Positions 8,009 to 59,321 of a stretch of DNA of 64,000 bases are shown here, in pieces; position 1 is the first letter of the stretch; every line of letters starts with the position of its first letter. The notes below the pieces were generated by a model. That model saw only the letters and a program-made list of their open reading frames with translations, was not told the origin of the DNA and ran no database searches. Position numbers and translations under genes: made by a program. Origin of the DNA: Nocardioides piscis (GTDB lineage Bacteria > Actinomycetota > Actinomycetes > Propionibacteriales > Nocardioidaceae); assembly GCF_011300215.1 (NCBI RefSeq), contig NZ_CP049866.1, forward strand, positions 3,720,669 to 3,784,668. The letters run 5' to 3'.

Positions 8009-8889
8009 GGGGTCTCAGCGGCCCTTGCCGGCGCCGTTCGACTTGCCCGGCCCCGTGACGGCGCTCTCCGGCGCCGCTGCCTCCGTCGTCTTGGTCGACT
8101 TGTCGCTCTTGCCGCGCTTGTCCGCCTTGGTGGACTTGGGGCCCTTGTCCGCCTTGGGGCCCTTGTCCGCCTTGGTGGACTTGGGGCCCTTGTCCGCCTT
8201 GGGGCCCTTGTCCGCCTTGGGGCCTTGGGGGCCTTGTCCGCGTCGGCCTGTTGCAGGCTTGACCCTTCGGACAACTCGATCTGGGGCGCCAGAGCGCTTT
8301 CCTGGCGTTGGCCCTTGCCAGCCCGGTCGCCGTCACGCTCGGCCTGCTTGGCGGCCTTGTCCGACTCTCGCGCTGTCTTGCGAGCGACCTGCACCGTCGG
8401 CTCCTCGCCGCCGTCGACAGGCGCACCAGCAACGACCGGCACCGGGGCCGGACTGGCGACAGGCGCGTCAGTGGGATCGGTTGGGTCAGCGGCGTTCGTA
8501 GGCTGCGGATTGCCGCCTGCAGCTGCGGACGGAGTTGCAGTCGGGGCGGCCGTCGGTGTCGCACTGACCGGGCTGACCGGGCTGGCCGTCGGCGTTGCTG
8601 ACGACGTGTTGCCGGAGGGGCTCGGCTGCGAGGTCGAGGAGTCAGAAGCCAAGGACCGAAGGGTCGCCGCGAACGATGGCGCCGGCACGAAGGCCTCCTC
8701 GGTCACCGGCGACGCCGGCGGCTGGGGGGCGGGGGTGATGATGGCGGGTTGCTGGCTGGCGACGACGCTGCGGCGCACGTCCAGCACTGCGTCCTTGGCG
8801 GTGTCGCGCACCCCCTGTCCCAGGGTCAGGGCGCACAGGAACGACACCATCACGAACGCGACCAACGGCCGCTTGTGCTCTGGGTTCAC
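8005..8889 (-). CDS. Membrane-anchored low-complexity protein (tail frame probably shifted)
   Basis: Not a recognised family. GTG at 8889 is chosen because it follows an AGGAGG site and makes the N terminus match the neighbouring gene: both share EHxRPxVAFVxVSxLCALxLxQGxR, one membrane segment with a short cytoplasmic start. The middle is rich in Pro, Ala, Ser and Thr, typical of an extracytoplasmic linker. From about 8225 the open frame gives an arginine/proline-rich tail with atypical third codon positions. The adjacent frame instead gives a lysine-rich repeat (ADKGPKADKGPKSTK) with nearly all G/C third positions and stops at 8015. One missing base near 8219-8226 would restore this, so the real product probably ends in the basic repeat. 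The literal frame ends inside the valS stop. Confidence 0.7.
   Translation of the reverse strand: MNPEHKRPLVAFVMVSFLCALTLGQGVRDTAKDAVLDVRRSVVASQQPAIITPAPQPPASPVTEEAFVPAPSFAATLRSLASDSSTSQPSPSGNTSSATPTASPVSPVSATPTAAPTATPSAAAGGNPQPTNAADPTDPTDAPVASPAPVPVVAGAPVDGGEEPTVQVARKTARESDKAAKQAERDGDRAGKGQRQESALAPQIELSEGSSLQQADADKAPKAPRRTRAPRRTRAPSPPRRTRAPRRTRAPSPPRRTSAARATSRPRRRRQRRRRAPSRGRASRTAPARAAETP
8117..8235. repeat. Tandem coding repeat (Lys/Gly/Pro-rich)
   Basis: Two nearly identical units of about 45 bases, each built from shorter elements CTTGTCCGCCTTGGGGCC and CTTGTCCGCCTTGGTGG on the plus strand, lie in the 3' end of the minus-strand gene. They encode repeated DKGPKA and DKGPKSTKA blocks in the frame judged correct. 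It is a protein-coding tandem repeat, with no spacers, and is likely prone to slippage. Confidence 0.85.
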
Positions 8890-9033
8890 CCCGAGTTCCC
8901 TCCTGTGTGGACAGGACTGGTTTCCAGTCTCGCCGCAGACCGGCCTGCACCGAAGGCCCCGGCCCAAAGATGGCCCGAACGGACTATGCCGCACCACCCT
9001 GTTGGGGCAGTCGAACTGCCTTGGTCACACACG

Positions 9034-9420
9034 TCATTGGGCGAGCAGGTCGGCCAGTGACAGCCCTGAGCCCCGCAGCTGCGTGTATGAGTACGGCGCC
9101 GGATCAGGCGCGACCGGCTCAGGCTCCGGCTCACTGCCAGCCGTGGCCTGCGCACCCAGGACTTCGACCGACGGCGCCGGGCTGGGGTCGGCTGCGGACG
9201 GTTCAGCCGCGGGCGGGCCGGCCGGCGCGGGGCCGGTGGACGGCCCGGGTGCCGGTTGGCCGGGCACCTCGGTCTCGGAGGGCTGAGCGGTCGTCTCGCC
9301 GTCGCGCAGTCCCAGGCGCTCCGCCACGACGTCGCTCCGGATGCCCTGGGCGAGCATGAGGGCGCACAGGACCGACACGAGGACGAAGGCGACTGTGGGT
9401 CGCTCGTGCTCCGTCTTCAC
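9034..9420 (-). CDS. Membrane-anchored proline-rich protein, partial paralogue of the adjacent gene
   Basis: A 128-residue protein of unknown function. The second of two close GTG codons (9420) is chosen because the GGGAGG site lies about seven bases before it. The N terminus (EHERPTVAFVLVSVLCALML, then AQGIR) closely matches that of the neighbouring downstream protein, giving one membrane segment near residues 8-25. The rest is acidic and rich in Pro, Glu and Ala, ending YTQLRGSGLSLADLLAQ. The shared head with an unrelated tail suggests tandem duplication followed by divergence, or swapping, of the exposed part. Confidence 0.75.
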   Translation of the reverse strand: MKTEHERPTVAFVLVSVLCALMLAQGIRSDVVAERLGLRDGETTAQPSETEVPGQPAPGPSTGPAPAGPPAAEPSAADPSPAPSVEVLGAQATAGSEPEPEPVAPDPAPYSYTQLRGSGLSLADLLAQ

Positions 9421-9545
9421 GCGCACCCCTCCCTCGTGGCACCGGTGACTAGCGCCATTCTCGCTTGCACAGTGCCCGATCGCACCAAGAACAGTCCACG
9501 AGAGCGGCCGCGTTCACCCCTAGGAGGCAGGGACGAGCAATCGAG

Positions 9546-57564: not shown

Positions 57565-58316
57565 CCGGGCAGGCTATCAATCGAGCGCGGATCGAATCCC
57601 CATGGCAGCTCGAGCCGGTGGGCGGCCATCAGGGCGTCGTCGGTGAGCACGTCGAAGGTGGCTGCGTCTGCCACCACCACTCCGTCACTGAGCACCACCG
57701 AGCGCGGGCAGAGCTCGAGGGCGTATGGCAGGTCGTGCGTCACCATCAGCACGGTCACGTCCAGCGAGCGCAGGATGTCAGCGAGCTCGCGGCGGCTCGT
57801 GGGGTCGAGGTTGGAGCTGGGCTCGTCCAGCACCAGGATCTCGGGCTCCATCGCCAGCACGGTCGCCACGGCCACTCGACGACGTTGGCCGAAGGAGAGG
57901 TGATGGGGCGGACGGTCGGCGAAGTCGGCCATGCCGACCTTGTCCAGGGCGTCCATCACCCGCCGGTCCAGGGCCTTGCCGCGCAGACCGAGGTTGGCCG
58001 GGCCGAAGGCCACGTCCTGTCGCACGCTGCCGAGGAACAGCTGGTCGTCCGGGTCCTGGAAGACGACCCCGACCCGCCGGCGGATCTGCGCCAGGTTGGC
58101 CTTGGCCACCGGCAGGCCACTGACCGTGACCGTCCCCGCACCGGCGGTCAGGATGCCGTTGAGGTGGAGGACCAACGTGGTCTTGCCCGCGCCGTTGGGT
58201 CCGAGGAGGGCGACCCGCTCGCCCTGGTGGACGTGCAGGTCCACGCCGTACAACGCCTGATGGCCGTCGGGATAGGCGAAGGCCAGCCGGCGGACGTCCA
58301 GCACCGGGGTGGTCAT
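57561..58316 (-). CDS. cbiO: Energy-coupling factor ATPase CbiO
   Basis: ATPase of the cobalt/nickel ECF importer. Walker A is LLGPNGAGKTTL, Q-loop FQDPDDQLF, signature LSFGQRRRVAVA, Walker B ILVLDEPSSNLD and switch histidine VTHDL. At 251 residues it is a single domain. The signature motif LSFGQ is a slight variant of LSGGQ. It overlaps both the cbiQ and DUF3618 genes. Confidence 0.93.
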   Translation of the reverse strand: MTTPVLDVRRLAFAYPDGHQALYGVDLHVHQGERVALLGPNGAGKTTLVLHLNGILTAGAGTVTVSGLPVAKANLAQIRRRVGVVFQDPDDQLFLGSVRQDVAFGPANLGLRGKALDRRVMDALDKVGMADFADRPPHHLSFGQRRRVAVATVLAMEPEILVLDEPSSNLDPTSRRELADILRSLDVTVLMVTHDLPYALELCPRSVVLSDGVVVADAATFDVLTDDALMAAHRLELPWGFDPRSIDSLPG

Positions 58317-58978
58317 GGCAACCGCCCGTCATAGCCGCGCGAGAGCATCGCGAGGTGGACCCGCTCACCGCGCTCGTAGGAGCGGATGAACAGCGCCCCC
58401 ATGGCGCGCGCCAGCGTCGGCCAGTGCTTCGGCGACCTCGGGTCGCAGCCGCGGGACCGCATCGCGACCAGCATCCGCGACAGCTCGCCGGTGACGACGT
58501 CGAGATAGCGGATCATGAAGCCCATGATCTGCACGATCAGGTCGGGCATGCGCAGGCGAGCCAGGCCACGGAGCAGGTCGGACGGCTCCGTGGTCGCGGC
58601 CAGGGTCAGGGAGGCCAGGACGCCGATGGATCCCTTGGTCAGCAGGGTGAGTCCGGCGACCAGTCCCGGCTCGGAGACCGTCAGCCCCAGCACCTCGGTG
58701 CGTGGGCCCGCCGCGATGAACGGCATCAGGAGCGCGAGCACCGCGAAGGGGACCTCGACCACCATCCGCGGCAGGAGATAGCTCAAGGGCACGCGCGAGG
58801 CGCCGATCACCACGAGCAGGAGGAGCAGCTCGACCAGGAACGCTGGCCACCACGAGCTCGGCGTCGCGACGACCACGAGCATGAACCCCAGCAGGGCCAG
58901 CAGCTTGACGTGCGCCGGAGCGCGATGGATCGGGCTGTGGGAGTGGTAGTGGAGCCGATGACCGTGTCCGGCACCCAT
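58313..58978 (-). CDS. cbiQ: Cobalt/nickel ECF transporter membrane component CbiQ
   Basis: T component that couples the ATPase to the substrate-binding subunit. The 221-residue protein starts MGAGHGHRLHYHSHSPIHRA, histidine-rich as usual, has membrane segments around LLALLGFMLVVVATPS and ASRVPLSYLLPRMVV, and the coupling motif MRSRGCDPRS with a second at SRGYDG. It begins two bases after the PDGLE gene. Confidence 0.93.
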   Translation of the reverse strand: MGAGHGHRLHYHSHSPIHRAPAHVKLLALLGFMLVVVATPSSWWPAFLVELLLLLVVIGASRVPLSYLLPRMVVEVPFAVLALLMPFIAAGPRTEVLGLTVSEPGLVAGLTLLTKGSIGVLASLTLAATTEPSDLLRGLARLRMPDLIVQIMGFMIRYLDVVTGELSRMLVAMRSRGCDPRSPKHWPTLARAMGALFIRSYERGERVHLAMLSRGYDGRLP

Positions 58979-58980
58979 CT

Positions 58981-59321
58981 CTAGGACCTCGGGGCGGCCG
59001 GGTCGCCGCGCCGGCGCAGGCCCCAGAACAGCGCGCCACTGATCATCAGCATGACTGCGACGCCGACGACCCCGGCCACTCCGCCACTGAGTCGGTCGTC
59101 GTCGACCCCACTCGTCTGGTAGTCGGCGAAGGGGCTCTGCGCCGTCGCCGACTCCTCGGCCGAGTCGGCGAACCCCGTCTGCCGGGCCACGAACTCGAGT
59201 CCGTCGGGCGCTGCGGCGGTGTAGAAGCTGACGACCCCGGCCACGAGGAGGCACACACCCACAGCCACGGCGAAGAACGTCTTGGTGCTGACGCGGGGCG
59301 GAGACGCTCGGGCGCGCTCAT
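58981..59321 (-). CDS. PDGLE-domain protein (CbiN-like), apparent frameshift near the start
   Basis: Small membrane protein that in Ni/Co ECF systems takes the CbiN place. AVGVCLLVAGVVSFYTAAAP is the first membrane segment, PDGLEFVARQTGF the name-giving motif, and GVVGVAVMLMISGALFWGL the second. The ATG overlapping the cbiM stop (ATGA, 59321) is in another frame. One more G in the run at 59295-59298 would join MSAPERLRPRVSTKTFFAV to the rest, a product of about 113 residues. As it stands only a GTG at 59268 opens the frame. Confidence 0.82.

Follow-up and report, generated by a model that had tools for sequence, protein, structure and literature searches.

The final 64,000 bases of the single 3,784,668-base contig of a 3.78-Mb Nocardioides genome (G000; completeness listed at 96.74) raise the question of whether genes that appear broken by the loss of one base carry real mutations or errors of the assembly. 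This whole stretch, referred to as the window, has a GC content of 67–71% along its length, with 69% for the genome, and displays synteny with the relatives G005 and G021 over much of its extent; the genus comparison set comprised G000 and 58 other genomes, and the best named matches of a protein from the window belong to Nocardioides, with identities of up to 90%. A preliminary description had proposed eight one-base losses in the window, each cured by adding one base within a short G/C run. The breaks are best explained by a long-read assembly that was not fully corrected and in which homopolymers are undercalled; this reading, an ordinary artefact rather than biology, is assigned a probability of about 0.96. 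The genes concerned are as follows:

8005-8889, minus strand: low-complexity protein that looks secreted and ends in a Lys/Asp-rich repeat tail; a break is probable near the G runs 8219-8222 and 8227-8231.
12323-13482, minus strand: gene resembling a hydrolase ("lipase"), with a break near the C run 12789-12793; finder call at 12791.
27222-28279, plus strand: MscS-type channel gene, its tail shifted near the C runs 28208-28211 and 28216-28219; finder call at 28209.
33027-34708, minus strand: ettA, broken beside the G run 34249-34253.
35538-37190, minus strand: GTPase gene (MMR_HSR1) with two breaks, near the C runs 36271-36274 and 37171-37173.
45468-46738, plus strand: gene whose product carries a HATPase domain at its N-terminus; break near the C run 46540-46542.
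58981-59321, minus strand: gene for a PDGLE-domain protein, located downstream of cbiM; a break close to its start, near the G run 59295-59298, is probable.

Status of the eight sites in the window

Six of the eight proposed losses (12791, 28218, 34251, 36272, 37172 and 46541) are one base short in comparison with relatives, whereas those at 8222 and 59296 are only probable. The suggested check against close relatives returned one-base gaps or a second-frame continuation at the six sites, and none of the six needs a base removed, as had been described; at 34251 and 46541, the lost base may lie outside the run itself. The run is just three bases long at 46541 and 37172. Strict-filter pairwise gap counting recorded three of the eight sites as losses relative to G005, and local alignments together with protein frames supplied the others. 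The pairwise counts against G023 were noisy in both directions, which is expected given the finder calls made in that genome itself. The finder is a Viterbi gene finder that uses phased order-5 coding scores and can step explicitly over a single missing or extra base; in the window it called a missing base three times (12791, 28209 and 34245) and an extra base once (49886), leaving five of the proposed sites, located near gene ends or in low-complexity sequence, uncalled.

The extra base at 49886 was rejected as a false positive, as the alignment to G005 is gapless within 45 bases of it and two genes overlap there. At 49764-49900 on the minus strand, these two genes, which use different frames, share some tens of bases; the overlap is not a break, since the DNA alignment to G005 runs through it without a gap.

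At 34251, a one-base gap was observed relative to all five syntenic relatives, and the two ettA pieces, lying in two frames, match EttA positions 2–155 and 158–556. With both ATP-binding motifs required within one frame, ettA is open in a single frame at 29 of 29 relatives' loci (the best-scoring of the 58 relatives) and is not so in G000. For the GTPase gene, whose MMR_HSR1 domain was found by Pfam in the piece 36254-37006, the site at 36272 displays a one-base gap relative to G005, G023 and G008 and a split gap relative to G021, with G051 unaligned, while the site at 37172 displays a one-base gap relative to G021 and G005, with the other three relatives unaligned. In G005 the GTPase is encoded by a single gene, and long single frames of 564 and 570 amino acids are present in G021 and G005, respectively (the motif matched in two of the five relatives); the one gene in G005 and the one long frame in G021 indicate that both breaks belong to the G000 sequence.

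The break at 12791 is a one-base gap relative to G005 (alignment 12317-13473), the sole aligner there among the five syntenic relatives, and a GHSMGG-like serine motif spans the join; neither piece of the "lipase" was named by Pfam or NCBIfam. The gene at 27222-28279 contains MS_channel domains (Pfam), and its second-frame tail at 28218 reads QPPAKGPARAEGPA followed by a stop, with an end that matches the GPARAEGPA ending seen in 6 of the 10 relatives listed (15 loci examined). The gene at 45468-46738, previously described as a PAS-domain gene, is likewise broken at 46541 as proposed; in 45468-46592, Pfam found an ATPase domain (HATPase_c_2) but no PAS domain. The coding signal changes frame around 46541, and the second frame continues the protein of a single relative, L199. 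In the DNA alignments there, L199 and L200 have gaps nearby without a clean pattern and L201 is unaligned; matches to this region among 196 genomes were mostly short and at chance level.

At the two other sites, a frame break is probable on indirect evidence. The coding signal passes between minus frames within about 8200-8320, and the KADKGPK repeats of the tail are readable solely in the second frame; a tandem repeat at 8110-8240 encodes these Lys/Asp-rich KADKGPK-type units at the end of the secreted-looking protein. The PDGLE domain was found by Pfam in the gene at 58981-59321, and, for the site at 59296, the ATG of the extended gene overlaps the cbiM stop. It is rather unlikely that the assembly errors account for most of the breaks only, with one or two of the eight (8222 in a repeat, 59296 at a gene start) being genuine changes or not breaks in the first place. 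No relative aligns across 8222, where tblastx returned low-complexity matches only and the matches among 196 genomes were mostly short and at chance level; the PDGLE gene could begin at an internal GTG at 59262, which is the finder's choice, and the N-terminal extension is missing in 8 of the 11 relatives listed. Against this stand the coding-signal shift together with the repeat tail at 8222, the overlap of the start with cbiM, and the extended N-termini of the other three relatives (L215, L218 and L225). Such a mixture refines the reading of the breaks as undercalls and is no replacement for it.

Frequency, sign and run context across the assembly

The assembly-wide frameshift rate, which had been named as a check, was measured on an 800-kb sample of G000 outside the window and amounted to 41 missing bases and no extra base. 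Sample A (20 stretches of 20 kb from along the contig, also among the sequence on which the finder was trained) contributed 17 missing and 0 extra calls; sample B (20 further stretches outside the training, five of them picked near rpoC, rpsC (two), gyrB and ftsZ) contributed 24 missing and 0 extra. The five stretches at essential clusters hold 5 of the 24 calls of sample B, all within two of them, with no break detected in the three near rpoC, gyrB and ftsZ; taken together, they carry 5 per 100 kb, equal to the rate elsewhere. In 20 control stretches from G005, G021 and G008 (400 kb, outside the training), 0 missing and 0 extra bases were called. The regions of 75 kb that are syntenic to the window (300 kb in total) yielded no call in G021, one missing base each in G005 and G008, and one extra base in G051, so that the four multi-contig relatives together gave 2 missing and 1 extra finder calls in 700 kb.

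The sensitivity of the finder was assessed on the control stretches, in which G/C runs of at least four bases were picked at random and had one base dropped or doubled. Losses were recovered with the correct sign in 101 of 180 cases and gains in 126 of 180, with 3 losses called with the wrong sign. Gains are recovered at least as well as losses, and the 41:0 split (p about 4e-15) is therefore not a bias of the method. The scatter of calls per 20 kb fits a random distribution (mean 1.03, variance 1.26; dispersion p = 0.16). Allowing for a detection of 56%, there is about one break per 11 kb, from which about 6 are expected in the window; eight is thus an ordinary number. Scaled from 41 in 800 kb at this detection to 3.78 Mb, the assembly would hold approximately 350 single-base breaks.

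Four of the loci in G000, L056, L062, L170 and L174 (at 0.8, 2.0, 2.1 and 2.9 Mb), are 52–67% coding, compared with about 87–98% elsewhere in the sampled sequence, and exhibit a lower GC of 0.59–0.67; these are possibly acquired islands.

The run context was examined for the 44 missing calls in 864 kb of G000, which include 3 inside the window and 41 outside it; the finder positions are approximate, such that the adjacent run cannot in every case be taken as the site of the error. A G/C run of four or more lies within 10 bases of 32 of the 44 calls, against a background of 14.6% (p = 6e-18), leaving 12 calls without such a run; for runs of three or more the count is 40 of 44 against a background of 54%, and 4 calls have no nearby run above two. 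Runs of five lie near 11 of the 44 calls (background 3.2% for five or more), and the longest neighbouring run is three, four and five in 8, 21 and 11 calls, respectively. In the coding sequence of the sample, G/C runs of three bases number 21,429, those of four bases 5,005 and those of five bases 1,228; a break was thus detected in no more than about 1% of them, and length does not mark the broken runs. Here, G/C runs of four outnumber A/T runs of that length about fiftyfold. Running counter to a simple picture, G/C runs of six occur at 22.9 per 100 kb in G000 and at 4.0–10.9 in five relatives, an abundance which indicates that long runs are not lost wholesale. In the 864-kb sample, six-base G/C runs reach at least twice the frequency of the relatives despite the lower overall GC of G000.

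Cause of the breaks

The breaks extend to genes of central function, whose pieces correspond to successive parts of a single family: ribosomal protein S4 (rpsD; 1–35 and 43–202), phenylalanine-tRNA ligase beta (pheT; 246–583 and 642–798), DnaK (1–454 and 457–620), D-Ala-D-Ala ligase (ddl; 29–107 and 111–363) and IspD (2–103 and 110–217), with NarG and lysine 5,6-aminomutase beta also split into consecutive family parts. There is one match to rpsD in the genome, and the two matches to pheT are the halves of one gene. Both rpsD and pheT are essential, and genuine breaks in them should be lethal unless rescued.

The pattern is one-sided, linked to G/C runs, genome-wide, randomly scattered, rare in four relatives and present in only-copy essential genes. 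An artefact of undercalling is expected to produce a single sign at runs, to be blind to gene function and to be rare in multi-contig relatives, and all three were observed. The undercalled homopolymers proposed at the outset are hence supported as the cause by the 41:0 split, the link to G/C runs, the random scatter, the rarity in relatives and the breaks in rpsD and pheT, with the type of long read and its basecalling as the presumed source. The genome appears to have been built as one contig from long reads that were not fully corrected, with a consensus that would write some G/C runs one base too short; at 69% GC, with G/C runs dense in genes and A/T runs rare, nearly every error would fall at a G/C run and shift the frame.

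The two causes that had been put forward as less likely fared accordingly. A slippage-prone (mutator) lineage, in which the losses would be real DNA mutations, is very improbable. The losses do adjoin G/C runs, and the actinobacterial NucS repair is described as not correcting indels, by which runs might be weakly protected (PMC8228993, in the part of the article available); a table in the same part lists indels as not raised by the loss of nucS. Slippage would also be expected to produce gains, yet there were none against the 41 losses although the finder detects gains readily, the essential rpsD and pheT, with one copy found of each, were not spared, and the pieces flanking the breaks retain strong family matches. 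It is scarcely credible that the runs are truly short and that ribosomal frameshifting, programmed or efficient, or slippage in transcription rescues them, which would square the breaks in essential genes with viability, as nearly all coding G/C runs of three to five (about 99% or more) are without a detected break and the site in ettA, the gene at which conservation of the site was tested, is absent from the relatives' loci (29 of 29 among the best-scoring of 58). That this lineage decodes hundreds of one-base losses, including those in rpsD and pheT, through efficient frame recovery at short G/C runs is equally far-fetched.

With the breaks read as undercalls, claims of gene absence, truncation or pseudogenes made from the G000 assembly are unsafe; the result is a caution on one genome record and adds nothing new for biology.

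Comparison with known systems

Blochmannia-type symbionts resemble G000 in carrying homopolymer frame breaks within otherwise conserved genes, but the symbiont breaks lie in long A/T runs of AT-rich genomes, whereas those of G000 lie at short G/C runs in a GC-rich genus. Homopolymer frame breaks accompanied by slippage are described for insect endosymbionts such as Blochmannia in the portion of PMC3017870 that was at hand.

Parallels are also provided by bacterial assemblies made from long reads only, for which up to hundreds of residual errors, mostly frame-shifting homopolymer indels, are reported in the accessible part of PMC8812927; in the corresponding part of one other study, deletions are most frequent after runs of four to five and affect A/T runs more than G/C runs, and pseudogenes fell from 23.3 to 5.6% on correction (PMC12007338). 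As far as these extracts describe them, such assemblies are similar to G000 in having single-base deletions at runs, in hundreds per genome, with genes split; G000 differs from the published cases in that nearly all of its breaks are at G/C and no call of opposite sign occurs in 800 kb (PMC8812927, PMC12007338). Within the genus, G023 is likewise assembled as one contig, 75 kb of which (contig C1, 1045000-1120000; L036-L039) yielded 17 missing and 4 extra calls, and this second one-contig assembly looks worse than G000. Its calls are denser than those of G000, gains are present, and 8 of the 17 missing calls are near runs of four or more, compared with 32 of 44 in G000, which suggests that the error signature is specific to each assembly.
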